A stretch of 64,000 nt of DNA from Streptomonospora nanhaiensis (lineage in GTDB: Bacteria; Actinomycetota; Actinomycetes; Streptosporangiales; Streptosporangiaceae): contig NZ_JACCFO010000001.1 in the NCBI RefSeq assembly GCF_013410565.1, positions 1,488,001 to 1,552,000 on the forward strand, written 5' to 3'. Positions 7,301-62,682 of the stretch are shown in pieces (within the stretch, counting starts at the first letter, position 1; the number at the start of each line of letters is the position of its first letter). The notes beneath the pieces are model-generated. The model ran no database searches. It saw only the letters and a list, made by a program, of their open reading frames with translations, and was not told the origin of the DNA. A program made the translations under genes and the position numbers.

Positions 7301-8830
7301 GACCTGCTGGCCTCCACCGGCGCCCTGCTGGAGCGCGACTACCCCGAGGCCCTGCGTTCGGTGGCCGCGGCCCAGGCCGACCACGCCCGCACCGCCGAGT
7401 CCCGCGCCAAGGCCGAGTCCGACGCCGCCGAGACCCACCGCGCCTACGCCGAGGCGCACGCCGTCCTGGCCACCCTGCGTGCCAGCCTGGGCCGCGACGC
7501 CGAACAGGTCAGCGCCGAGATCAGCGCGTTACAGGAGGAGCGGCAGCGCCTGCGCGCCCAGGCGCCCAAGGCCCAGGGCGAGGTCGAGGCCGCCATCAAG
7601 GCGCTGGCCGACGCCGAGGCCCGGGTGGCGGCCGTGGACCTTCAGGTGGCCGACGCCCGCGCCAAGGTCGCCGACGCCGAGGACGCCCTGACCGACGCCG
7701 CCGGCGTGAGCGGCGTGTGGGAGGCCGCCACCGGCCAGGTCGAGCCGCCGTTCGAGCGCGCCGACCTGCGCGCCGCCCTGGCCCGCGCCCTCGCCGACGA
7801 CACCGGCTCCGGCGATCCGGCAGCGGGCGCGGAGCCGGGCGGGCGGTCGGCGGCCGCCCGGCGCGCCGCCGGCGACCCCGCGGCGCTGGAGCGCGACCTC
7901 ATCGGCCGCATCCAGACCCTCCAGGCCGCGCTCGCCGGAACCCACGACGTGCAGGCCGACCGCGACCACGGCATCCTCACCGTGACCGTCAGCGACGAGG
8001 CCGGAACCGCCCCGGTGGCGGCCACCGCGCGCGCCACGGCCGCCCGGCTCGCCCAGGCCGAGGACAACCTCACCGAACGCGAGGAGGGCATCTTCGAGGA
8101 GTACCTGCTGGGCGACATCGCCGAGGAGCTGCACCGCCAGATCGGCGCGGCCGAGGCGCTGACCCGGCGTATGAACACCGTCCTCGAAGGCGCCCACTCC
8201 AGCCAGGGCGTGCGGGTGGAGCTGTCGTGGGAGCCCGCACCGCACCTGGACCCGGCCGAGCGGTCGGCGTTCGCGCTGGCCAAGAAGTCGGTGGCGCAGC
8301 GCACCCCCGAGGAGAACGACCGGCTGCGCCGCGCGCTCATGGACCGCATCCGCGCCACCCGCGAGCAGGGCAGCAGCACCGGCTACGCCGAGGTGCTGGC
8401 CGGCGCCCTGGACTACCGCCAGTGGTACGCCTACCGGGTCCGCATCCACGACACCGGCCCCGACGGCCGGCCGCGCGACCGCCGCGTCCGCCAGCTGTCC
8501 TCGGGCGAGACCCGCCTGGTGTCCTATGTGACCCTGTTCGCGGCCAGCGCGGCCTTCTACGACGCGCTGCAGACCGAGGCCGACGGCCCGCTGCGCATGG
8601 TGCTGCTGGACGAGGCGTTCGAGCGGCTGGACGACCCCACCATCGCGCGGCTGCTTGAGCTGCTGGTGGACCTGGACATGGACTGGGCCATCACCTGGCC
8701 CTCGGGGTACGGCGTCTCGCCCCGGATCGACCGCATGCACATCTACGACATCCTCAAGCGCAAGGGGGCCTGGGGCGTGGCCTGCGCCCGCACGACCTGG
8801 AACGGCTCCGGCTTCGAGCGCGCCGGCTAG
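4370..8830 (+). CDS. jetC: Wadjet type III JetC-like SMC ATPase (TIGR02680)
   Basis: This 1486-residue SMC/MukB-like ATPase is the motor of a Wadjet complex. The Walker A motif GTNGSGKS is at residues 57-64, a signature-like motif QLSSGETRLVSY lies near 1374, and the Walker B segment VLLDEAFERLDD is near 1410. Two very long Ala/Glu/Arg-rich coiled-coil arms lie between (about 270-650 and 850-1160), as expected for TIGR02680. Residues about 740-830 form an Ala/Pro/Gly-rich insertion that interrupts the region between arms and looks unstructured. The ATG at 4370 has GGAG about 12 bases upstream. No jetD follows; the next gene is unrelated. Confidence 0.88.
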   Translation: MSLPEVPTPELAGGERAARAPGAPRERWRLHRGGVVNIWQYRDEEFDLSGGRVIFKGTNGSGKSRTLELLLPLCLDGDLRNMGSKGFDTVSMSRLMLDDYTEGTVRVGYGWIELRRVLADGTESFLTCGVGVKASAAGRQVSDSWRFITPLRVNKDFALMEQERPIGQARLRERVGDDAVVSGQEAFQQRVAAAVYGISGGSRYTDLLHLQRTLRNPDIGLKVLQGQLEQLLSDALPPVDPDVISRTATGLDNLEGVRRNVARLRQADSALGGFLTGYRGYALGVLADRAAALGKAEAEVDRAAARRARRDKERAAAEDALRAAEAERDAVTERAEAVQTELDALKASPAYSALGDLEDKAATVASQRRHVVAALDNAEGLRAAEDQSIGAVERAAALAVRLGDAAASRAAEAREALAGIGLRSALGPLPDLRPALERTRATARVLRSPEPGARPEDVERESAPAIDTAALEQAAAQARDRVAAAAAAAAQRAPELAALRGEAERLAEEDARIERLGERAAQAAEDAAEAGRRARESEERLHELAREWADSVRRWHDQALPADDRPGADELLPVPEADAVATDPEGFRGTHRDIRAALQPRVRAAQHAVLQAEQRLAQAEAERVRLAAERDRLGATAEVEPPAPPLTTAKRAPSDGAPFHRLVDFRPGTPADAQAALEAALEAAGLLNAWVRADGAFGEAADTGDDTWAVPGPPCAGPSLADVLRPAAADTPVSDDAVAAILRSVPLLAAEPAASGAPGAAQAAADRAHPSAADSGGTPAAPGATAAPGATAPQDRAATPVAAPRSASPAAGGGAPAPGGRSGADLAFSLDGWWRAGVLRGRHRKAAAELIGAGAREQARRRRLAEVDHDLARVDSERADLRAALAQAQRQEAAWNTCLESFPDIGEVLRGRIETQTRRSAARRAASDAERAEAEHARARARAGAERAEHQRACADLGVASGLGELRDLSDHARRAADLLASTGALLERDYPEALRSVAAAQADHARTAESRAKAESDAAETHRAYAEAHAVLATLRASLGRDAEQVSAEISALQEERQRLRAQAPKAQGEVEAAIKALADAEARVAAVDLQVADARAKVADAEDALTDAAGVSGVWEAATGQVEPPFERADLRAALARALADDTGSGDPAAGAEPGGRSAAARRAAGDPAALERDLIGRIQTLQAALAGTHDVQADRDHGILTVTVSDEAGTAPVAATARATAARLAQAEDNLTEREEGIFEEYLLGDIAEELHRQIGAAEALTRRMNTVLEGAHSSQGVRVELSWEPAPHLDPAERSAFALAKKSVAQRTPEENDRLRRALMDRIRATREQGSSTGYAEVLAGALDYRQWYAYRVRIHDTGPDGRPRDRRVRQLSSGETRLVSYVTLFAASAAFYDALQTEADGPLRMVLLDEAFERLDDPTIARLLELLVDLDMDWAITWPSGYGVSPRIDRMHIYDILKRKGAWGVACARTTWNGSGFERAG

Positions 8831-8858
8831 CCCGGGCGGCCGGGCCCCCGCACGCCGC

Positions 8859-8883
8859 CGCGCGGGGGTTCGGCCCCCGCGCG
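8859..8883 (+). terminator. Hairpin after jetC (perfect 10-bp stem)
   Basis: CGCGCGGGGG and CCCCCGCGCG flank a TTCGG loop, 28 bp after the jetC stop. There is no T-run, which is common for actinomycete terminators. It separates jetC from the next gene. Confidence 0.55.
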
Positions 8884-8929
8884 CCTGGGCAGTGGGCCCC
8901 CGTCCGAGCAGACAGGAGGGGGCACACCG

Positions 8930-9292
8930 ATGTCCGAGAACCGGCCGGTCGAAGGCGAGCACCGCTACCAGCAGCAGATCGACTCCCCGGACCAGCACGA
9001 GGAGCGTCCGGGCAAGAGCCTGGTCACCACCAACCACGACGTCATCCGCCAGTGGGCCGAGGAGCGCGACGCCCGGCCGGCGACCGTCCCCGGAAGCGAG
9101 TACGACGGCCGCCCCGGACGGCTGCTGTTCGACTTCCCCGGCTACTCCGGTGAGAAGCTCCGGCACATCGACTGGGACGAGTGGTTCGAGGCGTTCGACG
9201 AGCGCGGGCTGAACTTCATCTACCAGGAGCACAAAAAGGACGGGCAGCCCAGCAACTTCTTCCAGCTGGAGAACCCCACCGAGAACTCCTGA
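8930..9292 (+). CDS. Conserved small protein of the family often labelled '1,4-alpha-glucan branching enzyme'
   Basis: This 120-residue protein has a disordered acidic N-terminus and then the pattern of a widespread small bacterial family: TTNHDVIRQWAEERDARPA, a glycine-rich turn, LLFDFPGYSG, IDWDEWFEAFDERGLNFIYQ and a final SNF motif. Many database entries name such proteins branching enzymes, but they lack any glycoside hydrolase domain; the function is unknown to me. A strong ribosome-binding site (AGGAGGG, 8914-8920) precedes the ATG at 8930. It follows jetC on the same strand, but the hairpin between them and the breadth of the family argue against a role in Wadjet. Confidence 0.75.
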   Translation: MSENRPVEGEHRYQQQIDSPDQHEERPGKSLVTTNHDVIRQWAEERDARPATVPGSEYDGRPGRLLFDFPGYSGEKLRHIDWDEWFEAFDERGLNFIYQEHKKDGQPSNFFQLENPTENS

Positions 9293-32790: not shown

Positions 32791-32864
32791 GGGCGGTTAG
32801 CTCAGTTGGTTAGAGCGCTACCTTGACACGGTAGAGGTCACAGGTTCGAATCCTGTATCGCCCA
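32791..32864 (+). tRNA. tRNA-Val(GAC), probable island insertion site
   Basis: A 74-nt cloverleaf: acceptor GGGCGGT pairs with ATCGCCC (one G-U), anticodon stem CTACC/GGTAG with loop TTGACAC (anticodon GAC). CCA follows directly in the DNA, unlike the other tRNAs here. An integrase remnant begins 14 bp downstream, which makes this the likely attachment site of the accessory region. Confidence 0.93.
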
Positions 32865-32880
32865 CCAGAATCACCGCAGG

Positions 32881-33303
32881 TCAGAATGGGTCTCTCAGAG
32901 ACTTCCCTCCTCGGCTCACGCCGACGGGGGAGATATCTGGGAGATCCCTTCTGTTTTCGGAGACGGAGTCGGCCCTCCGGCCGCGCTGTCCCGGTAGCCG
33001 CCGGTACAGCACGTCCAGAAAATCCGGCAACTGCACCCACCGCTTGCCCGCCGGCGTCTTCGCCCGCGAAGCCTTGGCCAGGCGCCCACCGCTTTCACGC
33101 AAGGGGCGGCGCACAACAATGGCACGATTGACCTCGTCGTACTCCTCGACTTGCAGCCCGACCAATTCAGACCAGCGGGCACCGGTGGAGGCGTCCATGA
33201 GGGCCAAGACGAACCCGGCACGGCCGAAGGTGTGGTGCAGGCGCAACGCCGCGCGCAGCGCCTGCGTGGGAGTGGCGACGCGGCGGTCGCTCTGGTAGCC
33301 GCC
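32881..33303 (-). pseudogene. Tyrosine recombinase (integrase) remnant
   Basis: About 130 residues of a phage-type integrase catalytic domain remain: ATPTQALRAALRLHHTFGRAG, then ALMDASTGARWSELVGLQVEEYD containing the first catalytic Arg, and KTPAGKRWVQLPDFL. The N-terminal arm-binding domain and the C-terminal HxxR and Tyr motifs are missing, so it cannot be active. The frame ends 17 bp from tRNA-Val(GAC), the usual place of an integrase in tRNA-integrated elements. It joins a CpaF fragment at about 33303. Confidence 0.75.
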
Positions 33304-33637
33304 GGATGATGTTCTCGATGTCGGGGTCTTCCAGCAGTTCTTGCAGCGGGCCAAGTCCGCAGACCTGCGCCAGCGCGCGCTGGGCCACCACACGCTCGGT
33401 CGATGCGTTCAGCACCGGACGGCCCTGGTTCAAGGCGCGCTGGGCGGCTTCGTCCAGTACCTGGCGGATGGTGCGCTCGGCTCGGCGGCGGTAGTCCTCG
33501 CCGCCCAGCGGCCCCTCGTCGTCAGCCGCGGCCGCGCTGAGGCGGCGCATCGCCTCCCCGGCGGTGAACCGCGCCCACTGGGCCAGCAGGTCGTCGCGGT
33601 CGAGAGTGGGGACGGGAGCGGTGTGCTCGGTGGTCAT
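33304..33637 (-). pseudogene. N-terminal fragment of a CpaF/TadA-type secretion ATPase
   Basis: About 110 residues remain, starting MTTEHTAPVPTLDRDDLL and ending at GLGPLQELLEDPDIENII, a motif that in CpaF/TadA ATPases precedes the nucleotide-binding domain. The Walker A and B motifs are lost; at about 33303 the sequence switches into the integrase remnant. It overlaps the CpaE-like frame by four bases (ATGA), so it was part of the same operon. Confidence 0.65.
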
Positions 33638-34404
33638 GCCGCGCCCGCTCGAAGCGGTGCCGAGGGCGGGGCGGGCACGTGGTCGGGGTGGAGCGCGTCT
33701 GCCAGTGCCGCGGCGAGGGAGCGCGCGGCGCGCAGCAGCGGGCGGCGGCCGGCGTGCGCGGCCGGTGTTCCGCTGCGAACGAAGGCGTCCGCCTTGGGGT
33801 CGGTGGGAAGGTGCTCGAGGACGGAGAGGCCGAGGGCTTGGCCGATCTGGCCGCCGTCGGGGCGGTGCCCGGTGACGACCAGTCCTAGGCGCCGCACTCC
33901 CCCGCGCAGGGCCGGCAGCGCCTCCTTGGCGCGCTTGAGCTGCGCCAGGTCGTCAGCCACCACCAGCAGTGCCGCGTCGGATGCCGCCACCAGGCGCGCG
34001 GCCGGCGACCGGGGCGTTAGGCGCCCCGCGTCCACCATCCACACCGCTTAGGTTGATGCCAGTGCCTGGGGATGCGGGGGGAGTATGGCCACGGCGCCGA
34101 CGGCGCGGTCGGCGGTGGCCGGCGCCGGGCACACGAGCTGGCCGCCGGGCAGCGTCTGCGTGCAGTCCCGCAGCAGTCGGCCGCTCTGGTCGGGGCCGGG
34201 GAGGTCGTCGGCGCGGATGGCGGCCGCCAACTCGACCACCCCGGGTGATGTGGGCATGTGCCGCCAGGCGGCCACAGCGCCGCCGGAGGCGTCGGCTTCC
34301 ACCATCACCGCGGGCATCTCCTGAGGCCAGGAGGCGGCCAGCGCCAGAGCCAGGGTGGTGACCCCCGGCGCGCCGCCCAGCGAGAACAGCGTGACCACCG
34401 GCAT
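33634..34404 (-). pseudogene. CpaE/TadZ-like MinD-type ATPase interrupted by a stop codon
   Basis: The frame starts MPVVTLFSLGGAPGVTTLALALAASWP, a degenerate MinD-type P-loop (GGAPGVTT in place of GKGGVGKT), and continues VMVEADASGGAVAAW. A single in-frame TAA at 34048-34050 interrupts it after LAST. The same frame goes on with VWMVDAGRL, SDAALLVVADDLAQLKRAKEAL and GLSVLEHLPTDPKADAF, the second half of a CpaE-like fold. Full length would be about 256 residues. A GTG two codons after the stop could start a separate product. Likely a nonsense-mutated gene of a Tad or conjugation operon. Confidence 0.65.
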
Positions 34405-44839: not shown

Positions 44840-45826
44840 ATGGATTTCCGCCCGATCGAGCGCACGACGCAGGCGTTTCAGCAGCCGGTGACCGCCGAGG
44901 AGGTCCAGAGGGTTTACCGCCGCGTCTTCGGCTCCGATTCCCGAGTGGTGTCCGCGGTGGAGCTGGGCTCGGGCATGTACAACAACGTCTATCGCGTGGC
45001 TCTGGCCGAGCGGGACCGCCCGGTGGTTCTTCGGGTGGCGCCGGCGAAGGCGCGGCAGTTCCGCAGCGAGCGGCACCTGATGAGGAACGAGCACGCCGGC
45101 TTTCCGTGGCTTGCTCCGATCGCGCACCTGATGCCGCAGGTGATCGCCGCGGACTGGACGGGGCAGGTGATCGGCCGGGACTGGATGATCCAAACCTACC
45201 TGGAAGGTGTCCCGGCTCCAGAGCATCTGGGGTCGTACCCGCGGAGCACATGGCCTGCGTTCTTCCGGCAGATGGGTGCGATCACCCGTGCCGTGCACGA
45301 TGTGCGGGGACCACATTTCGGGCCTGTGGCCGGGCCGGGATACGCCACGTGGAGCGAGGCTGTGATCGCGTCCCTGGAGGACATCGCCGCGGACCTGGAC
45401 GGTGCGGGGCTGGAGGCGACGGACGTGCGCAGGGTCGCCGCGGCGGCCCGCCACGACCGGGCGGTGCTGGACGAGGTCACCGAACCCCGCCTTCTGACCG
45501 GTGACCTGTGGACTGTGAATACTCTGCTCGACCGGGACGCCGACGTGCCGACCATCAGCGGCGTGCTGGACTTCGACCGCTGCCACTTCGGGGACCCGGA
45601 CGCCGATTGGACGATCCGTATGGCGACGGCCAAGGCCGATGAGCGCGAAGCCTTCTGGGAGTCCTACGGTCCGCTGGACCGGTCGGAGGCCGCGGTGTGG
45701 AGGGCGCGGGTCTATGAGGCGCGGCATCTGGGTGCGGTACGCCTGGAGCGGTACCGGCTGGGCAAGGCGGAGGCGGTGAGCGAGAGCTATGGGGCGATGG
45801 CCGCCGTGCTCGCCCAACTGGCCTGA
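44840..45826 (+). CDS. Aminoglycoside phosphotransferase-family (APH) kinase
   Basis: This 328-residue protein has the APH kinase fold: an N-lobe with the ATP loop ELGSGMYNNVYRVAL and the lysine-equivalent region VVLRVAPAK, the catalytic segment TGDLWTVNTLLD (about residues 218-229, in the place of HGDLHxxN) and the metal-binding GVLDFDRCHFGDP near 244. The substrate is unknown; family members phosphorylate antibiotics or other small molecules. The ATG at 44840 has GGGG nine bases upstream. It converges with and slightly overlaps the ATP-grasp fragment. Confidence 0.8.
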   Translation: MDFRPIERTTQAFQQPVTAEEVQRVYRRVFGSDSRVVSAVELGSGMYNNVYRVALAERDRPVVLRVAPAKARQFRSERHLMRNEHAGFPWLAPIAHLMPQVIAADWTGQVIGRDWMIQTYLEGVPAPEHLGSYPRSTWPAFFRQMGAITRAVHDVRGPHFGPVAGPGYATWSEAVIASLEDIAADLDGAGLEATDVRRVAAAARHDRAVLDEVTEPRLLTGDLWTVNTLLDRDADVPTISGVLDFDRCHFGDPDADWTIRMATAKADEREAFWESYGPLDRSEAAVWRARVYEARHLGAVRLERYRLGKAEAVSESYGAMAAVLAQLA

Positions 45827-46422
45827 CCCGCGTCGCCGGGCGGGACCACGCGGAGTTGGACCTGTCGCGCGAGCAGGTCGGCACGCTGTTCCACCTCGGC
45901 CGCGTCCGTGCCGGTGGCGACGAAGGCGCCCAACCGCTGGGCATTGGCCGAAGGGGTGTGGACCATGCCGCCGATCGGCGCCCGCCAGCGCACGAACGGC
46001 ACCCCCGGCGCGGGCCTCCGAAACCCGGTCACGGAGACGAGCCATCCGGCGTGCGGGACGGCGATGAAGCGGACGGTGGCATAGCCGTGGGCGGTGGGGG
46101 TGAGCACTGCCGGGCGGCCTAAGGCGACCTCGAGCAGGGCCGCGAAGACCTCGATGCCCAGGGCGTGCTGGAGCAGGAGGCCGATGTGCCCGGCACCGAT
46201 CCGGGCGGCGATCTCGATGATCGTGCACTGGCAGGCCACATCAACGATGACTTCGGTGTGCGAGGCGCCATGAGGGATGCCGACCGCGCGGATCACCGCG
46301 TCCACCTCCCGGTGCACAGCCGCTTCCGTCGCCGGGGGCAGGCGGACAGGAATGCCGACATCGCCACCTCGGCGAAGAGCGAGTGGACGCGAAGGCGTGG
46401 GCGGCGCTTCGCCACTCGTCAA
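45787..46422 (-). pseudogene. C-terminal fragment of an ATP-grasp enzyme
   Basis: The frame retains HTEVIVDVACQCTIIEIAARIGAGHIGLLLQHALGIEVFAALLEVALG, which contains the ATP-grasp metal-binding Glu and Arg (EIAARIGAGH), and the following lid-type domain (LVSVTGF, SANAQRLGAFVATG). The N-terminal and central domains are gone; the first ~45 residues look unrelated. It resembles carboxylate-amine ligases such as L-amino acid ligases more than TgmB. With its flanks it forms RiPP-associated debris. Confidence 0.6.
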
Positions 46423-46457: not shown

Positions 46458-47609
46458 TCAGGCGAGGAGGAGGCAGCGGTCCCAGCGAGACTGTAGACCC
46501 GAGTTCAAGGCCAGGTGTGTGCCTGCGGTGCCTTCCAGGAAGCCCGCCCCTTCGTGGTGCGGCGCGGGCGTCTCAGCGGACTTCTGCGCGGTCGGCAGGT
46601 GGCGGTGGAGTCGGGGCACCCCGGGCGCCTGGTCCTCGGCCATCCGTGTGAGGGCGCGTAGAACCCCCGCAGGGCCGTGGCACAGACCTCCGGCGGTGAG
46701 GCCATCGACGCCGGTCCCGGCCACCAGACATGCGTCCATGGCCCGCTCGGCCGTGTGCCGGCGCGCGATGTCGCCCAATGCCAGCGCCGCGACCTGCTGG
46801 GCACGGGCAAGGCCCGAGGTCCCGTAGCACCATGTGGGCGGCCCGGGTCGGGTCGGCCCGGTGGCATTGTGGGCGACCGTCCAGGGCGGCCACCATGGTC
46901 CCGCCCGACCTTCGTACTGGAGAGAGTCCAGATAGGCGCAGAGGAGTTCGAGCGTGGCACGCTGCTCCCGCACCGTGCGGCCGGCGCGGTAGGTCAATCC
47001 CAGGAGGCTCACCACGCCGGCGATACCGTGGGCCATGCCGAGGTTGGCGTGGCCGTCGGGAAAGTCCGGGTCATGTCCTCCCCGGGGCGAGTGGTGGACC
47101 CACCAGCCGGGGTGGCAGCGACCCTCGCGGCGCACCGGACGGCACAGGCGCACCAGGTAGGCCAGCACGTCCTCGAGCAGTTCGCCGTCAGGGTCGGCCT
47201 CCCACACCGCCACGGCGATTCCGGTGAGGCCGCTGACCAGGTCGTACTCCCCGAAGGAGGCCGGTTCCGCGCGGTCGATGCGGGCGTGGGCTGCTTCCAG
47301 GCGGTGGCGGACGAGCCTCCGCAGTTGTTCCCGGACCGTCGCGCGGGCACGGCGGTAGTGGTCGGGCGGGGCAAGGGCGAGCGTGAAGGCGACTGCGGGA
47401 AGGCCGTGGAACAGGCCGGGACGGACCGTGGGATCGAGGGCGCCCCCTGCCAGGGCGGTGCGCAGCCATGCGTGAGCCGTCTCGGCAGGGCTTCCCGAAG
47501 CCAGGTGGACCAAGGCGATCCCCAGGGCACCGCGCGCCAGGGACAGCGGCGGTCCCGCTTCCGCCTCAACGGAAGCCGGGTCCTGGGGAAGCGCATCAGC
47601 GGGGGGCAT
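46458..47609 (-). CDS. Lanthipeptide cyclase LanC
   Basis: This 383-residue protein is a class I lanthipeptide cyclase. It forms the (methyl)lanthionine rings by adding Cys thiols to dehydrated residues. It keeps the zinc and active-site motifs: NLGMAHGIAGVV, WCYGTSGLARA (Cys about 259) and LCHGPAGVLRAL (Cys-His about 309-310), and the final EGTAGTHLAL. The ATG at 47609 overlaps the end of lanB by 14 bases, as in a single operon. No frameshift or missing residue is seen. Confidence 0.9.
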   Translation of the reverse strand: MPPADALPQDPASVEAEAGPPLSLARGALGIALVHLASGSPAETAHAWLRTALAGGALDPTVRPGLFHGLPAVAFTLALAPPDHYRRARATVREQLRRLVRHRLEAAHARIDRAEPASFGEYDLVSGLTGIAVAVWEADPDGELLEDVLAYLVRLCRPVRREGRCHPGWWVHHSPRGGHDPDFPDGHANLGMAHGIAGVVSLLGLTYRAGRTVREQRATLELLCAYLDSLQYEGRAGPWWPPWTVAHNATGPTRPGPPTWCYGTSGLARAQQVAALALGDIARRHTAERAMDACLVAGTGVDGLTAGGLCHGPAGVLRALTRMAEDQAPGVPRLHRHLPTAQKSAETPAPHHEGAGFLEGTAGTHLALNSGLQSRWDRCLLLA

Positions 47610-50513
47610 GGGCCGCTCCGGGCAGGTGGCGCAGGGACAGGGTGAGGCTGCGCGCCAGCGCGAGCAGGCGGTGCTCGTCGTCGCGGTCGGGCCCGTGCAC
47701 ACGGTTGTGGTGCATATGCCACAGCGAGGGCAGCACCGTCAGGGGGTCCTGGCAGTGGCGCCGGTAGGCGGCCAGTGCTTCGTCCCGGGCCTGCCACGCC
47801 CGGTCGACGTGCGGCGGCGCCATTTCGGCCTGGGTGAACAGTGCGCGAGCGCGGGCCAAGGCGGGGCGGTCGACCGGCTCGGAGGAGCGGGGCAGACGGG
47901 TCAGCAGCCAGTCAGAAGCAGCTCCCATGGCCGCGGAGACGCGGAGCAGGGACAGCGCCGCCAGCGCCCGAAGACGGTCCGCGTCCTGCCCGCACGCCTG
48001 GATCTGCGCCAGTGCGGCGCGGCTGTCCGCGACGAAGACGTCCTCGGCGGCCCTCATGGCGGTCCCGCGGCCGTACCTGTCCCGCTCCGGGCGGTAGGGC
48101 TCGAGTCGCCAAGTGTGGATCAGTTCCGCCTCGCCGAGGGTTCGGGCCCACTCCCCCACGGCCGCCTGGACGGCGTCCGGCTCGGCCGGTGCCCGTAGGC
48201 GCAACCGCAGGTGCGGACCGGAGTCGTCGCGGTAGCGCACGAACCAGGTCCGCGCCGGCACTCCGCCGAGGAGGGCGTCAAGGCCGCTGAGTCCGGCCAG
48301 GACCCCGGTGAACAGGCAGGGGTCGGTGTAGAGGTGGGCGGAGACCCACGCGGACCTGTCGACGGCCGCGGCACTGCGCGCCCGTGAGGCGATCGGGGGA
48401 TTTGGGCACGGCGTCGGCGGCCGCGTGGTGCCCAGGGGAAACACGAGTTCGTGGGCGTGGCCGCCGCACCAGGAGAAGCCGTCGGGGTCGGGGGCCTCGG
48501 TGATGACGGCGCTGCCGTGCCGGTGCAGGTGGTCGGTGACCAGCACGCGCTGTGCGGGCTCCGCGAGGTCCAGCGGCAGCCCGCGTTCCCCCTCCAGCAG
48601 CAGCACGCGGCGGGGCAGGGGCAGGTGGGGCCGGCTGCGGGCCTGGGGCCATGTGTGCGGAGTGAGGCGCCACTGGGCGGGGGTGAGGATGCTGCGGCCG
48701 GTGCGCAGCCGCGGCAGGTAGGCGAAGCTCGCGGTGGTCGGCGGCCACGGTCGGTTGGTCGGGTAGAGGCCGGTGCGGCCCTGCGGCAGTTCGGCGGTGA
48801 AGCGGGCCAAGGGGTGGGTGTAGCGGCGCGTGTCCAAGGCACTGGTGCAGAAGGGCTCCAGCACGGCTCCGGTGGGCGTGTGGACCAGGCGCAGGTGGTC
48901 GGGGTCGATGCGCACCGCCACCTCCCGGATGTCCATGACCTCGACGCCTGGCTGGTCGGGCGGGTAGGTGTCGATCACCAGTACGCGCGAGGCGACGATG
49001 GGCGAGCGGGCGACGTGGGACGCGTCAGCGGCCATGGGCGGGGCCAGGACCTGCACGGGCACGGCGCCTGCGGTGAGGGTCGGCAGGTGGGTGTCCAGGC
49101 GTGGATCCACCATGCCCGGCAGATGGGCGAAGCGCCCGGTGAGGGCTCCCGCCCCGCGCGAGAGCCCGGTGATGAACAACTGGAACCGGCCCGCGTCGAC
49201 ATCGGCTGCGGAGGCGCTCAGCAGGTGGGCTCGCACTTCGGTGTGCGCGGGCACCCGATCGGGCTCCGCGCCGACGAGGTGGCGCCACGCCGGTGCCTCC
49301 AGGTCGAGGTCGACTTCGCCCTGCGCGGCGGCCTCGGCGGCGGCCGCCGCCAGGGCTCGCTCCCGGTCCCGGTCGGGATGCGCGGCGGGGGCGGTCAGGC
49401 GCGAGCCGGGGAAGGACGCGGGCAGCCCCAGCCCGGCCGGTCCGGTCAGGCTGAGGAGGCCCACGAGCGCGTGCTGGCCGTAGGTGTCCAGGCAGCGCCG
49501 GTGGTAGTCGGCCCATGCTGTCTGGTCGGCGGTCTTTGGGGCAATGCGCGCCGCCACACCGGCGGCGCGGGCCGCCTCCTCGGCCACCTGGCGGTGGAGT
49601 TCGACCCGCACCGCCAGCCGGGTGTCGACCGCCACCGCCTGCCCGTCGCCGGCGCCCAACTCCCGGTTGACCCGGTGGCGGATGCGGATCCGCTCCTCGT
49701 GGCCGGTGCCGGATCGGTTGTGGTGCCGCAGCGCTTTCGCCGCCGGCTCCAGAGCGGGGGCGTGCTCGGCGAGGTGGGACAGCGGCCACGGGTGCCAGAC
49801 GGGCGGCGGTGCCGCGCTGATGAGGATCCGGTGCGCGAGCAGGGTCGTGAGCAAGTCGGAGACGGCGGCCGCCCCGGCTCCGGGGAAGGCGCAGGTGAGC
49901 GCGGTGCGCAGTTCACCGATGGTCGTGGGTACCCGGGCGAGGCCCAGGGCAAGGAGACCGCCGGGGTGTGGCGCAGCGACACCGTGCCCGCCTTGCGCGG
50001 GTCATCGCGGTGCGGGGTGTGGGCCAGGACCAGCCGGTCGCCGTGGACGCGCACCGTCTGCGCGGCCACCACCCCGGTGGCGTGGCCGGCTTCGGCGCTC
50101 GCAGCGCCGGCGTGGGCGGCCAGCCAGCCGGGAGCGGGCTGAGCGAACTCCTGGTGATGGTCCTGCCAGGAGACCTGCGTCAAGGAACCGATCGTGACGG
50201 GCGCGACTCCCGCGAACAGTCCGAACGGTGTCGGGCGGCCGGTGGCGCGAAGCAGGTAGCGGGTGAGCGCTGCGGCGGTGCGGCGCGCCTTGGCCTTCGT
50301 TGGAGGATCGGCACGGAGCAGCGTGCGTGCCAGCGAGGGGCTGGCGACCTCGATCGCCCTCACCAAAAGGTGATCCCGTTCGCAGACCCCGGCGGTCCAC
50401 GCGCGCAGCTCCGCCTCGGAAGCCCGTCCCACGTCGAGCCAGCGCCGCCCGGGGGCGTGGGCGCGGGTGGCGGCACGCAGCGACGCGCCCAGTCCGGTCA
50501 AGGGGATGTACAC
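47596..50513 (-). CDS. Lanthipeptide dehydratase LanB, split by an apparent frameshift
   Basis: Together the two frames give about 970 residues, the size of full-length class I LanB. These enzymes use glutamyl-tRNA to dehydrate Ser/Thr. The N-terminal frame (50513 to about 49950) contains the PTPFGLFAGVA signature. The second frame (to 47596) carries the rest of the glutamylation domain and the C-terminal elimination (SpaB_C-like) domain, WFVRYRDDSGPHLRLRLRA and RLEPYRPERDRYGRG. One base seems to be lost near 49945-49960. The GTG at 50513 lies after the hairpin following the precursor gene. If the shift is real, the enzyme is dead; if it is a sequencing error, the locus is intact. Confidence 0.85.
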
Positions 50514-50545
50514 CAGGGCTCCGTTCAGTCCGGTCGGGGGGGCAC

Positions 50546-50581
50546 GTGTGAGCGGGCACCGTGCTCGGCGCCCGCTCACAC
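50546..50581 (-). terminator. 12-bp perfect inverted repeat between precursor and lanB
   Basis: GTGTGAGCGGGC and GCCCGCTCACAC surround a 12-base loop, starting 8 bp after the precursor stop. Such a hairpin can act as a partial terminator or RNA-stabilising element so that more precursor than enzyme is made, as in other lanthipeptide operons. Confidence 0.7.
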
Positions 50582-50589
50582 GGCTCAGG

Positions 50590-50799
50590 TCATCCGCCGC
50601 CGCCGCTGTTGGTGCAGCTCTGCGTGCAGGCGCTCTGGCAGGTGGAGCCGCATCCGTCGTTGGTCATCGACCACAGCGGCTCATCGACAACGGGGACCTC
50701 GACCCGCAGGTCCAGATCGAAGGCGTCGTCGCCGAGCGTGCGGTCGCGGCTGAGGGCCACGAGGCCGTCGGCGGTGGGTGCCGCGGTGAGGGTGCTCAA
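50590..50799 (-). CDS. FxLD-type lanthipeptide precursor (LanA)
   Basis: This 69-residue peptide has an acidic leader with FDLD at residues 27-30 (the FxLD motif recognised by LanB) and a C-terminal core of about 25 residues, MTNDGCGSTCQSACTQSC plus TNSGGGG. The core holds four Cys (50, 54, 58, 62), eight Ser/Thr, and an Asp-Gly pair (48-49), the likely target for isoaspartate formation by the adjacent methyltransferase. The start (ATG 50799) overlaps the lanS stop by ATGA. The leader cleavage point is not evident; no protease or transporter gene is nearby. Confidence 0.88.
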   Translation of the reverse strand: MSTLTAAPTADGLVALSRDRTLGDDAFDLDLRVEVPVVDEPLWSMTNDGCGSTCQSACTQSCTNSGGGG

Positions 50800-52073
50800 T
50801 GTCGCTCCTTTTCTCCGAGGGTGTCGGTCCAGTTCAGGACCGTGTGGGTGTGCCGCTTGGTCAGGACCCGCCCGCTCGGCAGTGCCTCGCGCGGCGTGGA
50901 GGCGGGCAGGATGTCGATCTTTGGCCGACGGCCCCGGTGGTGGCGGCCCCAGTCGCTGATCAGCTCAACCATGGCGTGAGCGACGTGGCGGGCCCGCGGA
51001 CCGTGGCCCACCGCGCCGAACTCGTAGGCGTCCTCCGTGCCGTCGCTGCCGCGGATGCAGCGGTAGGCGAAGCTGGTCCCGTCGTCGCTGATCACCGCAG
51101 GGGTTCCGGACAGTACGACCGGGCGCAGGATCCCCGCCTCGACCGCGCCGCGCTGGGCGGTCAGCAGTGCCCATCCGTCGGCCGCGCACGCCATGTACAG
51201 GTCCTGGCTGTCGGTGGGTTCCATGCCGCCGACGCACGTTGAGGACCAGAGGACCACCGGATCCTGGGCCAGTGCCGCGCGCAGCGCCCCGACGTCCACC
51301 GACGGGCCGTCTTCCAGTCGCAGCCCGACCTGCCTGCCCTCGGCCTCGTGCAGCAGCGGCATGGGTTCCCAGTGCTCTCCGGCGCCTTGCATGCGCACGA
51401 AGCCGCAGACATCGACCGCGACGCACCGCCACCGCCCCGCGCCGGCACCGCGCTCCAAGGTCAGGCAGCGGGTGAGGCCGCGCACCCGCATCGGCACCAC
51501 CACGCGGCCGCCCGGCGCCACCTGCGCGTCCCAGGCCGGAGGGAAGTCCCAGGCCCCCGCGGTGGCGATGACCCGGTCGTAGGGCGCCCGGTCGGGGTAG
51601 CCGTGCTCGCCGTCGGCCACAGCCAGGTGAATCCCTTCCAGACCGGCCTCCTTCAGGCACCGCGTGGCACGGTCGATGACCTCGGGGTCGATGTCGATCG
51701 AGGTGACTTGCCCCCGCTCTCCCACCAGGTGCCGGATCAGGGCCGCGTTGTAGCCGCCGGAACCGATCTCGAGAACGCGGTGGCCCGGCCGCAGGTCGGC
51801 GCGTTGCAGCATGGTGGCGATGATGCTCGGCGCCGAAACGGAGCTGAGCGCCACGTCGGTCTCGGGATCGCACTTGGTAACCACGGCCTGGTGCTGGTCG
51901 TAGACCTCGGTCAGCGGGAGACCGGGCAGGAACGCGTCGCGGGGCACGGAGCGGAGCGCGCTTTCGACGCGCGGTGACGGCAGCTCCATGCCCAGGCCCA
52001 CCCGTTCGCGGATCAGGTCCTCGACCATGCTCTGGCGCGCCTGTTCGGGGGTGATCGGGGTGTGAGAGGGCAC
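50796..52073 (-). CDS. FxLD-system methyltransferase (LanS, PIMT-like)
   Basis: This 425-residue protein has an N-terminal protein-isoaspartate-methyltransferase-like domain with the SAM motif VLEIGSGGYNAALIRHL near residue 98 and YDRVIATAGAWDFPPAWDAQVAPGGRVVVPM. The C-terminal domain (about residues 215-425) is typical of the FxLD-system enzymes. OlvS-A, a characterised relative, methylates an Asp of a lanthipeptide, which then cyclises to succinimide and opens to isoaspartate. It is the first gene of the operon (GTG start, GGAG upstream). An IS element ends 21 bp upstream, which probably separates it from its promoter. Confidence 0.9.
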   Translation of the reverse strand: MPSHTPITPEQARQSMVEDLIRERVGLGMELPSPRVESALRSVPRDAFLPGLPLTEVYDQHQAVVTKCDPETDVALSSVSAPSIIATMLQRADLRPGHRVLEIGSGGYNAALIRHLVGERGQVTSIDIDPEVIDRATRCLKEAGLEGIHLAVADGEHGYPDRAPYDRVIATAGAWDFPPAWDAQVAPGGRVVVPMRVRGLTRCLTLERGAGAGRWRCVAVDVCGFVRMQGAGEHWEPMPLLHEAEGRQVGLRLEDGPSVDVGALRAALAQDPVVLWSSTCVGGMEPTDSQDLYMACAADGWALLTAQRGAVEAGILRPVVLSGTPAVISDDGTSFAYRCIRGSDGTEDAYEFGAVGHGPRARHVAHAMVELISDWGRHHRGRRPKIDILPASTPREALPSGRVLTKRHTHTVLNWTDTLGEKERH

Positions 52074-52090: not shown

Positions 52091-52968
52091 CTAGGCAGTG
52101 TTTGTTGAACGGGTAAGGTCGCGCAGCCAGATTCTGATCGAGGCCACCTGGACGGTGCCCTCGAAGATCACGGCCCGCTTGTCATAGCGGGTGGCCACCG
52201 CGCGGTTCTGCTTGAGCAGGTTGATCGCGCGCTCGACGGTGTTGCGCAAGCGGTAGGCCTCCCGGTCGAAGGACGGGGGCCTGCCGCCCGCCGAACCGCG
52301 CCGCAGCCGGTTGGCCCGCTGGTCGGCGGGCTCGGCGATGGTCGCCTTGGTCTTGCGCCGGCGCAGGTAGGACCGGTTGGCGCGGCTGGAGTAGGCCTTA
52401 TCGCCCAGCAACCGGTCCAGGCGGGTGCGCGCCCGCCCCCCGGAGCGCGCCAGGCGCAGCCGCTCCAGCAGAGGCCGCAGCATCACCGTGTCGGCGTGCT
52501 GGCCGGGGGTGAGGGCCAGGACCAGCGGCCGCCGGCGGGTGTCGGCGATCAGGTGGATCTTGGTGGACCAGCCGCCCCGCGAGCGCCCGAGTGCTTGGGC
52601 CCTGTCCCCTTCGTCCCGGGCCGCCTCCCCTTTTTTGGGGCTCCGGCGGCGTGGTGGTGGGCGCGGATCACGGTGGAGTCGATACCGGCGGTGAGTTCGG
52701 CGCCGGTGAGGGCGTCGATGCGCAGCCGGTCGGCGATGCGCTGCCAGGTGCCGTCCAGGCACCAGCGGCGGTGGCGTCCGGCGGCGGTTTCCCAGGGGCC
52801 GTAGCGTTCGGGCAGGTCGCGCCAGGGGATGCCTGTCCTGGTGCGGTAGAGGATGGCGTTGATGACGCGGCGGTGGTCGGCCCACCGCTTGCCTTTGCGG
52901 GGGTGGGCGGGCATGAGCGGGGCGAGCAGGTCCCACTCGGCGTCGGTGAGTTCATGGCGTCGGACCAT
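52091..52968 (-). CDS. IS5-family transposase (two frames joined by programmed frameshift)
   Basis: The first frame (52968 to about 52550) starts RRHELTDAEWDLLAPLMP and ends its DDE part with AGIDSTVIRAHHHAAGA. The second frame continues GGWSTKIHLIADTRRRPLVLALTPGQHADTVML, GDKAYSSRANRSYLRRR and the C-terminal VERAINLLKQNRAVATRYDKR with the catalytic Glu. A run of six A followed by GGGG (plus-strand T-run 52632-52637) is a standard slippery site for frameshifting in the IS427 group of IS5. The stop codon of the second frame lies in the flanking CTAG. Confidence 0.88.
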
Positions 52969-53025
52969 GGATCCCAAGGATTACCGAAGACCAGCCCGCC
53001 CCGCAGACCTTTCAAAAAACAGGAC
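52095..53025. mobile_element. IS5-family insertion sequence, 931 bp
   Basis: The ends show imperfect inverted repeats, GGCAGTGTTTGTTGAACGG on the left and GGTCCTGTTTTTTGAAAGG (minus strand) on the right, with about 14 of 19 identical. CTAG flanks both ends (52091-52094 and 53026-53029) as the target duplication usual for this group. It lies between lanS and the divergent regulator. Confidence 0.85.
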
Positions 53026-56262: not shown

Positions 56263-57010
56263 GTGAAGGTCGACCCGGTGGTGCGGGAATTCACCCCGGG
56301 GCGCTCGCCGGGCCTGCTGGAGGTGGGCGGGGCCTGCACGGGCATGATCGGCACCCGCCTGGCCCGCCACCTGGACGCCCGCGGCCCGCTCCTGAGCATC
56401 GACACCGCCTGCTCGGCCTCGCTGACCGCCCTGCACTACGTCTGCCGCGACCTCCAGGACCAGCGCGTCGACACCGCGCTGGTGGCCGGGCTCAACTCCG
56501 TGGACAACGCTGCGGTGAGCTCGGCGTTCGCCGCCGGCGGCGTCCTGGCCCGGGTGTGTCGGCCCTTCGACGCCCGCGCCGCCGGGTTCGTGCGCGCAGA
56601 AGGCGTGGTCGTGCTGGTGCTCCAGCGCGCCTCCCGGGCCCGCGCGGCCGGGAACCCGGGCTACTGCCTGGTGGCGGGTTCGGTGGTGGGCGGCGACGGC
56701 GCGGCGCCGACGGCGGTGGGCGCCCCCCACGCCGGCGCCCAGGCCGACCTGGTGCGCTCCGCCTACACCCAGACCGGCCTCGACCCCGACTCGGTCGGGG
56801 TCGTCCAGGCCCACGGCACCGGGACCCGGGCCGGGGACCGCGCCGAAGCCCGCGCCCTGGCCAAGGTCTTCAAGCGCACACGCCAGGACCCGCTGCTGGT
56901 GTGCAGCATCAAGGGCGCGGTCGGGCACCTGGAAGGAGCGGCCGGGCTCGCCGGGGTGGCCGCCACCGCCCTGACCCTGCACCACGGCCAGGCGTGGCCG
57001 CCGCAGCCTA
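56263..57010 (+). pseudogene. Beta-ketoacyl synthase fragment
   Basis: About 245 residues of a ketosynthase core remain. The nucleophile is in SIDTACSASLTALHYV (Cys50), the first His in QAHGTGTRAGDRAEARAL (about 184), and the second His in KGAVGHLEGAAGLAGVA (about 222, in place of the common KSNIGH). Roughly 90 N-terminal residues and the C-terminal strand-helix are missing, so the fold is incomplete. It resembles modular PKS or fatty-acid-like KS domains. A different frame ending at 57080 reads YSLQDYTDFVDAYGFDV, the tail of another, unidentified gene. Confidence 0.7.
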
Positions 57011-57344
57011 CGCCCGCGTGGGAGGGTACAGCCTGCAGGACTACACCGACTTCGTCGACGCCTACGGCTTCGACGTCTGAAACTGGCGGGATGTGCGACG
57101 CGGCTGCAGATGCGGCTGGTGCGGATGACCGCGCGACCGTGCGCGCACCGGGCGGGAACTGCGGCTGCGCACTGAGGCCGCTCACCGGATCGCCTCCCTG
57201 CGCCCCCGCGAACCGCGAACCTGAGTCAGGCCAGTGCGGGGGGGACGGGGGCAGGGCGCGGAACCGCCACACGGCCGCGGAGTCGGCGTAGGGGTCCAAG
57301 CGCACGTTAGAGCGGCTACGCGCCCCACGTCCTGATTGCGTCCT

Positions 57345-58566: not shown

Positions 58567-59028
58567 CCATCACGAGGTGAGACGAAAGCATCATATCGAA
58601 CTTCCTGCGGAGTTACTCCCATACGGGGCGGGCATGCAATTGCATAGACGTCTGATATGCCAGACCTTGCCATGTCTTCGCAGTTCAAATCCTAGATCAT
58701 GGATCAGCTTCTGCTCGCCTAGGTTTTTCACTTATCTTGCTGTGGATGCTTTGCGAACTGTCGCGTCATGCGCGCCACGACGCCTTGCCCATCTTCACGA
58801 TGTATCCGTTATGTGACTCTGAGCAAGGCGGGCACCGTCAGTCCTCCTTGACCAAAAAATTCTCAACGCAGAAACCATGCTGGCCCCCTGTATTGGAATC
58901 CGTATCAATCCCTTGCTCATCTTGCACCCCGGTGACCTGATGGCGTCCACCCGCGTTCGCGCCCGGGCGCTGCGCCTGGATGGCCAGGAGGTCGAGTTCA
59001 CGATCGACGGCCGTGCCAGGCCGTGCGC
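58567..59028. other. Interval without a clear gene; low GC on the left
   Basis: Roughly 58567-58930 has low GC and only short frames. From about 58938 GC rises and codons look actinomycete-like, but I could not place the short frame there with confidence. It joins the LanB-tail remnant. Confidence 0.4.
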
Positions 59029-59031
59029 ACG

Positions 59032-59268
59032 CTGATGATCACCGATGCCACCGCCCTGGCCCGCACCGGCCGCCCGCTCCACGGCCACCTGGCGTGGGTG
59101 GCGGAGTTCGAACGCGCCGGCGCGGCACTGGGCGACCTCGCCGCCGGCGGCCGGCTCACCCGCGGTCTGCGCGCCGTCATCGCCCACCACATCCTGTTCC
59201 ACGCCAACCGCGCCGGCCTGTCCACACAGGACCAGCACACCCTTTCCCACCTAGCAGAAGAGGCAGTC
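59032..59268 (+). pseudogene. C-terminal remnant of a second LanB-type dehydratase
   Basis: About 79 residues read TDATALARTGRPLHGHLAWVAEFERAG, GLRAVIAHHILFHANRAGLSTQDQHTLSHLAEEAV. This is the end of the elimination/SpaB_C (thiopeptide-type) domain, recognised by the GLRAVxAHHxLFHxNRxGL motif. All upstream parts are missing. It runs in frame, without a stop, into the following methyltransferase. Confidence 0.7.
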
Positions 59269-60579
59269 ATGGGTACCGACGACCGCACCGCGCCAGCCGC
59301 CGAGGCCGTTCCGGCTGACACCACCAGCACGGTCTCGCCCGCGCCGGGATCCGCCCGCGCCGACCGTGCCGAAGCGCTGCGCCATGCCTGGGTCGAGCGG
59401 ATCCGGGCCGACGGGCACGCCCGGGCGCCCGGCGTGGAAGGCGCTCTGCGCACCGTGCCGCGCCACCTCTTCGTGCCCGAGGCGCCGCTGGCCGACGCCT
59501 ACGCCGACAGCCCCGTCCACATCAAGTACGCCCCCGACGGCACGTCGATCTCCTGCGCCTCCCAACCCGGAGTGGTCGCCCTCATGCTCGACCAGCTCGA
59601 TGCCCGGCCGGGCGACCGCGTCCTGGAGTTGGGCGCGGGCACCGGCTACAACGCCGCCCTGATCGGCCACCTGGTGGGCGCTACCGGGCATGTGACCACC
59701 ATGGACGTCGACGCCGACCTGGTCGAGGGCGCCCGCGCGCACCTGGTCGCGGCCGGCGTGGACAACGTCGAGGTCGTGCTGGGCGACGGCGCCCTGGGCC
59801 ACGCCCCCAACGCGCCCTACGACCGCGTCATCGCCACCGTCGGCGCCCACGCCATCCCCCGCGCGTGGCTGGAGCAGCTCGCACCCGCCGGGCGCCTCGT
59901 GGCACCCCAGCGGCTCAAGGGCAGCGTCTCCCGCTCCATTGTCTGGGAGCACCGCGAAGGCCGATGGGTCTCGATGGGATCGGCGATGAACACCTTCATG
60001 CCCCTGCGCCGGGGCATCGCCGACGACGAGCGCCAACTGATCCCCCTCAGCGCCGACGGGACGGTGCGGTTGCAGGCGCCCGCCGGAATCGGCGCCGACG
60101 CCGAAGAACTGGCCGGGGTGCTGGAGCAGCCGCGCACGGAGGTCTGGACCGAGATGACGGTCGGTGCGGCGGAGTCGCCCGAGTGGATGGAGTTGTTCGT
60201 GAGCTGCGCCCTGCCCAGCGGACTGATCCGCATGCTGTTTCCTCCGGAGGCCAAGGGCGGGCTGCTCACCGCGGACCCCTACCCCTCCTCGACCGCGGCC
60301 CTGGACAAGGGCACCCTCGCCTACCTCACCCGCCGCCCCTCCCCCAGGACCAGCCCCCAGGGCGCCCGGCTGTGGGAGTTCGGCGTCGCCGCGCACGGAC
60401 CCGGCGCCCAGGACCTGGCGCAACGCGTCGCCGAGGCCGTGCGGACCTGGGACCGCGACTACCGCGGCCGCGCTGCCCACTTCGAGCTTCACGACCGCAC
60501 AACGCCGCTGGAGCAAGCGCATCCCGGACGCTTCGTCCTCGACACCCCTCTCAACCGGGTGGTCGTCGACTTCACCTGA
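59269..60579 (+). CDS. Second FxLD-system methyltransferase
   Basis: This 436-residue homologue of the LanS at 50796-52073 has ALRTVPRHLFVPEAPLADAYAD, the SAM motif VLELGAGTGYNAALIGHLVG, YDRVIATVGAHAIPRAWLEQLAPAGRLVAPQRL and a C-terminal FxLD-type domain. It should methylate an Asp in an FxLD lanthipeptide. ATG 59269 has GAAGAGG upstream and fits the family length, but the frame is also fused to the LanB remnant before it. No second precursor gene is visible close by, so it may be orphaned or act on the peptide encoded at 50590. Confidence 0.85.
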   Translation: MGTDDRTAPAAEAVPADTTSTVSPAPGSARADRAEALRHAWVERIRADGHARAPGVEGALRTVPRHLFVPEAPLADAYADSPVHIKYAPDGTSISCASQPGVVALMLDQLDARPGDRVLELGAGTGYNAALIGHLVGATGHVTTMDVDADLVEGARAHLVAAGVDNVEVVLGDGALGHAPNAPYDRVIATVGAHAIPRAWLEQLAPAGRLVAPQRLKGSVSRSIVWEHREGRWVSMGSAMNTFMPLRRGIADDERQLIPLSADGTVRLQAPAGIGADAEELAGVLEQPRTEVWTEMTVGAAESPEWMELFVSCALPSGLIRMLFPPEAKGGLLTADPYPSSTAALDKGTLAYLTRRPSPRTSPQGARLWEFGVAAHGPGAQDLAQRVAEAVRTWDRDYRGRAAHFELHDRTTPLEQAHPGRFVLDTPLNRVVVDFT

Positions 60580-61989: not shown

Positions 61990-62202
61990 GGACTCACCCC
62001 CGCGCAGGCAGGGAAGACCAACTCCGCCGGGGTTGCGTACTCGGTGATCAGGACTCACTCCCGCGCAGGCGGGGAAAACCCCGCCTCGGGACGGCGCCTT
62101 TACGACAGCGCGGACTCACCCCCGCGCAGGCGGGGAAGACCCGGTCGCGGGCCGCCCGGGCGGTTTCCACGAGGACTCACCCCCGCGCAGGCGGGGAGGA
62201 CC
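61990..62202 (+). CRISPR. Orphan CRISPR array, 4 repeats and 3 spacers, type I-E-like
   Basis: Repeats start at 61990, 62051, 62112 and 62173, an exact 61-bp period (about 29-30 bp repeat, 31-32 bp spacer). The core CCCCCGCGCAGGCGGGG is a hairpin as in type I-E repeats, with GGACTCA before and AAGACC after. Repeat 3 matches the consensus; repeats 1, 2 and 4 carry one to two changes each (GGCAGGG, CTCCC plus AAAACC, GAGGACC). The spacers are all different. No cas gene lies in the window. By analogy with E. coli repeats the leader would be on the left. Confidence 0.85.
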
Positions 62203-62328
62203 CTTCACGAACTGCACAAACGCGGGCCGTTATCAAAAATACACCTACAGGCTTCGATCACATCAACCATACGCCGCACATCCCTCACCAAAACCTGCGC
62301 CCGCAACCCGCCTACGACAGCCCCTCCT

Positions 62329-62682
62329 CTATCGCCCCAGACTGAGGGGCGCGAAACTCGGACAGGCATGGATCACCCGCGACCACAACGTCGGGTCGGC
62401 CACCGCCACGTTCGCGGCCAGCGACGCCGCGCTGCCCACCACCAGCAGCGCCCAGGGCAGCACTCCCCCGCGCCGCCCCTGACGGGCGTCGGCCAGCAGC
62501 GCCATCGACGCCGCGACGATCATGCCGTCCACCGACAGCGGGAACAACCCCGCACGCCAAGCCGGCTCACCATGACGCAGGGCCAACTCGAACATGTGGG
62601 CGTAGGACACCACGGCCGCGATCACGGTCAGCAGGCACACGGCCGCCACGGAGGTCCACCGCGGCCAAGAGGACAGAAGCAT
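62329..62682 (-). pseudogene. DUF2637 (SpdB-like) membrane protein, truncated
   Basis: The frame has 117 residues, with helices at about 10-30, 45-62 and 75-95. It contains SYAHMFELALRHGEPAWRAGLFPLSVDGMIVAASMALLADARQGRR, the recognisable DUF2637 core found on conjugative plasmids and integrative elements of streptomycetes. The normal ending after ANVAVADPT (a Pro-Ser-Phe-rich motif) breaks off after about 100 residues, so the C-terminal cytoplasmic domain is lost. It marks this zone as mobile-element debris. Confidence 0.7.

Follow-up and report, generated by a model that had tools for sequence, protein, structure and literature searches.

The FxLD-type class I lanthipeptide gene cluster of Streptomonospora nanhaiensis described here is carried, we consider it probable, on an integrative element at a tRNA-Val gene, in a copy that is decaying and no longer yields a lanthipeptide. 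The loss of a product is suggested by lanB, which is out of frame, by an IS5 element upstream of lanS and by the degenerate state of the surrounding island. The first-pass annotation of this DNA, a window of 64,000 nucleotides whose numbering is used below unless a contig position (G000:C1) is given, had read the cluster as a producer. Its reading of the family and of the core stands, whereas production in S. nanhaiensis is doubtful for the same three reasons. That annotation did not extend to two further observations: the cluster lies on a genomic island, and lanB is uninterrupted in another FxLD cluster of the same genome.

All parts of the cluster lie on the minus strand between 52073 and 46458 and are read as lanS, lanA, a hairpin, lanB (in two frames) and lanC, the order that had been described before. 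The first gene, lanS (fxlM; 50796–52073, minus strand), has a GTG start and encodes a PIMT-type O-methyltransferase of the FxLD system of 425 aa. It matched TIGR04364 ("methyltransferase, FxLD system") with 422.9 bits (cut-off 320), and residues 16–198 correspond to PF01135 (PCMT). A C-terminal extension past the PIMT domain is present, with the PCMT match ending at residue 198 of 425 and the TIGR04364 match reaching residue 415. The first half of the methyltransferase aligns with PIMTs, best with chain 1dl5, of which the source is Thermotoga maritima according to the available part of PMC13001092. The exact WXXXGXP motif was not found in the lanS sequence; in that same part of PMC13001092 it is given for lasso, graspetide and imiditide enzymes and not for lanthipeptide ones. 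The TTG start of lanA (50590–50799, minus strand) overlaps the lanS stop codon. Its product, an FxLD precursor with the C-terminal part TNDGCGSTCQSACTQSCTNSGGGG, matched TIGR04363 ("FxLD family lanthipeptide") with 45.8 bits (cut-off 30). At the other end, lanC (46458–47609, minus strand) encodes a lanthionine cyclase of 383 aa (PF05147, LANC_like, 104.6 bits), of which the WCYG and CHG motifs align with those of NisC (2g02); we take their Cys, Cys and His to be zinc ligands. ATG 47609 is the more likely start of lanC than GTG 47702, because the 31 extra codons from the latter would overlie the end of lanB. Directly downstream of lanC, the C-terminal domain of an L-amino acid ligase (PF18603) is found on a fragment (45787–46422) that may be what remains of the end of an ATP-grasp gene.

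Genes for LanB and LanC (PF04738/PF14028 and PF05147) adjoin those for the precursor and the methyltransferase. The LanB of Streptomonospora mangrovi aligns with the lantibiotic dehydratase 5ehk (MibB) and with NisB. In 14 control genomes, TIGR04364 exceeded its cut-off in none and gave weaker matches in all 14, as expected of ordinary PIMTs; TIGR04363 had no match in any of them. Judged by these profile matches, the cluster belongs to the FxLD (LanSA-type) group of class I lanthipeptides and includes a PIMT-type methyltransferase. The earlier call of an FxLD class I cluster with a methyltransferase is thus borne out by both FxLD models over cut-off, the LanB and LanC domains and the TxDGC core.

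FxLD systems are a known and widespread actinobacterial family, also called LanSA lanthipeptides or lanthimiditides. TIGR04363 precursor matches occurred in four of the six genomes of the genus, S. nanhaiensis included. In the searches of the taxonomic family and of the class, scoring covered the 24 or 18 best first-look candidates of each genome; matches were found in at least 103 of 297 genomes of the family (at least 96 over cut-off) and in at least 59 of 394 genomes of the class sample, which includes family members. Relatives of the methyltransferase (E 1e-20, <60% identity) were found on 54 of 72,556 plasmid records. That this is a new kind of cluster was ruled out, because both curated models, TIGR04363 and TIGR04364, exceed their cut-offs. 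The suggestion that the product is of an undescribed kind does not hold either, as 1305 lanthipeptide clusters with such methyltransferases have been counted (available parts of PMC10787088 and PMC13001092) and S. mangrovi encodes an identical lanA peptide. According to the accessible text of PMC7268733, the four largest families of class I lanthipeptides consist of LanSA-type clusters, all of them actinobacterial; no characterised mature product of this type is named there. No title listed in the literature searches concerns this particular cluster.

The same gene order, annotated as fxlM, FxLD lanthipeptide, lantibiotic dehydratase and LanC, occurs on plasmid p1 of Streptomyces angustmyceticus (NZ_CP104318.1). 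This locus differs by a fifth gene, for a stand-alone thiopeptide-type protein, which had no match beside the cluster in S. mangrovi or in two Nocardiopsis loci; no such protein was over cut-off beside the S. nanhaiensis cluster. The first-pass annotation had remarked on the lack of an adjacent transporter, protease or immunity gene, and none is named in the annotated p1 locus either. By description, the cluster also resembles OlvA/OlvSA of Streptomyces olivaceus, where a PIMT-type methyltransferase stands beside a class I cluster with a conserved core Asp (PMC13001092, PMC7268733, as far as their available text goes). The chemistry of OlvSA has been shown in vitro, whereas that of the S. nanhaiensis cluster is predicted, and its lanB is out of frame.

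The last 25 residues of the lanA peptide contain four Cys, eight Ser/Thr and an Asp-Gly ahead of the first Cys. The composition given earlier for a "25-residue core" is therefore correct, whereas the length of 25 is a choice and not a mapped cleavage product. The core TNDGCGSTCQSACTQSCTNSGGGG carries the TxDGC motif in the form TNDGC and is similar to the cores at L013, L016 and L033, which represent two Nocardiopsis loci and a further genome of the same genus. More generally, the precursors of relatives have common FxLD leaders and mostly cores of the T-x-D-(G/N)-C type. A TXDGC core has been described for LanSA clusters, and OlvSA methylates the Asp of the cyclised peptide, giving an aspartimide and from this 70–80% isoaspartate (available text of PMC13001092, with PMC10787088 for the core). 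Since the lanA core carries the family TxDGC motif, conversion of its Asp to aspartimide and isoaspartate is likely by analogy with OlvSA. Where lanB is in one frame, as in S. mangrovi, LanB would dehydrate Ser/Thr residues and LanC would join the four Cys into thioether rings. LanS would then act on the cyclised peptide and methylate the TNDGC Asp, which would pass through an aspartimide to mostly isoaspartate.

Between lanA and lanB lies a hairpin (50542–50584, minus strand), for which we propose the role of an attenuator or mRNA stabiliser. Compared with 100 dinucleotide shuffles, its stability had a z of −5.8 in S. nanhaiensis and −6.1 in S. mangrovi. The sequence just after lanA had z < −2 in 31 of 53 FxLD sequences and z above 0 in eight (median −2.6), in a survey in which identical precursors were collapsed, loci were limited to those whose precursor fitted the pattern, L021, L024, L032 and L110–L113 were left out, and the near-identical S. 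nanhaiensis and S. mangrovi sequences were both counted. As no T run follows the hairpin on its 3' side, an attenuator or stabiliser is favoured over a simple terminator. Such a hairpin 3' of lanA would raise the level of lanA mRNA relative to that of lanB.

The cluster sits on an island bounded by tRNA-Val(GAC) (32791–32867, plus strand), which forms the left attachment site, and a direct repeat of its 3' end. The right copy of this repeat lies beyond the window, at G000:C1:1577001–1577066 (89001–89066 in window numbering); it is 66 bp long, 97% identical, and covers the 3' half of the tRNA with the bases that follow. A matching pair occurs in S. mangrovi, and 51 bases of the repeat are identical in all four copies of the two genomes. 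The repeats enclose about 56 kb in S. nanhaiensis and 78 kb in S. mangrovi. Four island stretches common to both genomes (9.0, 3.5, 3.2 and 2.8 kb) are 98.0–99.4% identical, whereas the three longest flanking alignments reach 88.1, 88.6 and 89.8%. This suggests that the island was recently exchanged between Streptomonospora species. The identity values do not fall into two neat classes, as a 2.4-kb flanking piece adjoining the tRNA is 93.4% identical and three smaller island pieces are 91.4, 94.4 and 95.4% identical. In S. mangrovi the island starts with a tyrosine integrase and encodes HTH_17, PrgI, TraG-like, TrwB-like, replication-relaxation and T2SSE proteins that exceed their Pfam cut-offs. 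That copy contains both an integrase and VirB4/VirD4-type transfer genes, together with a TrbL match that is below its cut-off; a relaxase was not among the proteins identified. The cluster would be the cargo of an integrative element at the tRNA-Val gene. A phage origin was considered and rejected: a scan of viral contigs with the lanA pattern, which detects close relatives only, gave no match.

The right part of the island (G000:C1:1554749–1575626) holds several genes that by eye resemble those for universal-stress proteins, CBS-domain proteins and P-type ATPases, and no alignment with the S. mangrovi contig is listed there. Four direct repeats with a period of 61 bases (GGACTCACCCCCGCGCAGGCGGGGAAGAC-like) at 61990–62215 resemble a short type I-E CRISPR array. 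At the edge of a 98% identical block, a beta-ketoacyl synthase (56263–57291) is missing the first 146 of the 252 profile positions of PF00109. DUF2637-type genes occur at 62329–62682 and in locus L021 at 8356–9087, both with Pfam matches, and a third at G000:C1:1576057–1576791 is alike by sequence; the L021 copy lies near the second FxLD cluster and the third near the right end of the island, and the window copy is shorter.

The copy of the locus in S. mangrovi S1-112 (NZ_JAJAQC010000018.1; L012, identical to G003:C9:64605–81879) is 98.5% identical over 9.0 kb. Unlike S. nanhaiensis, it has lanB in one frame, no IS5 and an island with integrase and transfer-type genes. Between the two species no codon of lanA is changed (0 of 69), and changes affect 3 of 425 codons in lanS, 38 of 383 in lanC and 13 of 185 in lanB before its break. 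After the break, 25 of 779 lanB codons are changed, with dN 0.0060 and dS 0.0265. Small as they are, these numbers agree with selection having acted on the cluster until recently.

In the S. nanhaiensis assembly lanB is not a single open frame, as had been noticed before. The assembly does contain the frameshift: the frame is lost near 49,950, at about codon 188, and the S. mangrovi gene is one open frame of 986 codons. The 5' piece (49446–50513, minus strand) follows the dehydratase frame from GTG 50513 to about 49,950 and then runs out of frame to the stop at 49446; the longer ORF 50579–49446 matched PF04738 (Lant_dehydr_N) with 104.1 bits. The 3' piece, listed as an ORF at 47596–49854 (minus strand) and with a homologous frame up to about 49,950, contains the rest of Lant_dehydr_N and Lant_dehydr_C (PF04738, 272.2 bits; PF14028, 126.8 bits). 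GTG 50513 is most likely the start of lanB on its sequence context, a conserved GGAGC and RTG-TAC at this position in S. mangrovi and the two Nocardiopsis loci. As this start lies downstream of a one-base difference at about 50,536, that difference falls between the genes, and the idea of another frame error at the beginning of lanB was ruled out.

Whether the break exists in the living strain bears directly on the alternative that the cluster is intact, that the lanB break reflects a mistake in sequencing or assembly and that the peptide is made, which we consider unlikely. Around lanB, the two Streptomonospora sequences differ by two one-base changes and one of three bases. Both one-base changes sit in short C runs, which are a common site of assembly error, and this favours an intact gene, as do the unchanged lanA, the nearly unchanged lanS and the constraint that dN and dS indicate for lanB after the break. 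The lanB break is the sole frame-breaking indel in 16.2 kb of called coding DNA of the four common island stretches, a count that ignores 30 bases at ORF ends. In a comparison of proteins, 32 S. mangrovi ORFs aligned over more than 85% of their length in one frame and five, lanB among them, were split between frames; these counts exclude best hits below 70% identity and partial single-frame cover, ORF calling followed a simple GC rule, and some of the five are perhaps mis-called. Because five ORFs are split, disagreement of frame is not unique to lanB and an assembly error is possible. A frame-error rate from DNA alignments of the 88–90% identical backbone was too noisy and was set aside.

Against an error in the assembly stand several other changes of the island, none of which is a one-base error. 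Beside the tRNA lies an integrase remnant (32986–33315, minus strand) that corresponds to residues 153–267 (115 residues) of the S. mangrovi island integrase at 68.7% identity. Joined to it is a truncated T2SSE/CpaF-like ATPase gene (33167–33637, minus strand), encoding 156 aa compared with 448 aa in S. mangrovi. A gene that we labelled ParA/CpaE-like by eye (33634–34404, minus strand) has a premature TAA at 34048–34050 and is open in S. mangrovi; the alignment across it is gapless, so the stop arose by substitution, and neither of its two pieces had a Pfam match. The S. mangrovi PrgI, TraG-like, TrwB-like, Replic_Relax and HTH_17 proteins had no match (E 1e-5) in the surrounding 280 kb. Of the seven element proteins searched there, a match was obtained for the integrase, in part, and for the TrbL-like protein, of which a 31% identical counterpart is encoded near 42.1–43.1 kb. 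The S. nanhaiensis island, then, lacks the intact integrase with transfer genes.

Finally, an IS5-family element (52095–53025, minus strand), absent from S. mangrovi, lies between copies of CTAG (52091 and 53026), starting 22 bases upstream of the start codon of lanS; both of its overlapping transposase ORFs exceed the NF033580 cut-off. As the transposase reads toward lanS and a GGAG remains ahead of the start codon, from which 21 bases separate the element, lanS may still be expressed. Taken with the integrase remnant, the truncated ATPase, the premature stop and the absent transfer genes, IS5 makes true decay more likely than error. In the preferred reading of a decaying copy, the S. nanhaiensis element would have lost its integrase and the genes for transfer, would have acquired IS5 ahead of lanS and would no longer have lanB in frame.

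The second FxLD cluster raises the alternative, in our view very unlikely, that lanB is truly broken and the precursor is modified in trans by another LanB. TIGR04364 was over cut-off at three places in the S. nanhaiensis genome. One is this second cluster (G000:C1:6201594–6208203), which comprises a methyltransferase, a precursor, an uninterrupted lanB of 1006 aa, lanC and an extra Lant_dehydr_C gene. Its uninterrupted dehydratase gene, a precursor with the same FDLD leader motif as lanA and a TGDNC core, and the still open lanS, lanA and lanC of the island cluster are consistent with modification in trans; the S. mangrovi LanB and the LanB of the second cluster, however, are only 34% identical, and the cores differ. 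The remaining FxLD-system methyltransferase lies in the island (59023–60579, plus strand; TIGR04364, 430.3 bits). It is preceded in frame by an apparent thiopep_ocin end (TIGR03891 positions 202–262 of 263, 34.0 bits, below the cut-off of 48.45), and neither of the two FxLD precursors found genome-wide sits beside it. A C-terminal fragment of a methyltransferase lies just outside the window (G000:C1:1552140–1552364). Also very unlikely is that isoaspartate lanthipeptide clusters, borne by conjugative elements at tRNA-Val, move between Streptomonospora species and that the degenerate copy survives through the LanB of the second cluster acting in trans, in which case one strain would make two FxLD peptides with one dehydratase.

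With the preferred reading of a decaying copy, the place to seek the product would be S. mangrovi rather than S. nanhaiensis. The cluster seems to have been transferred recently and is uninterrupted in one of two related species but apparently broken in the other, which offers a natural comparison for the function of the peptide.
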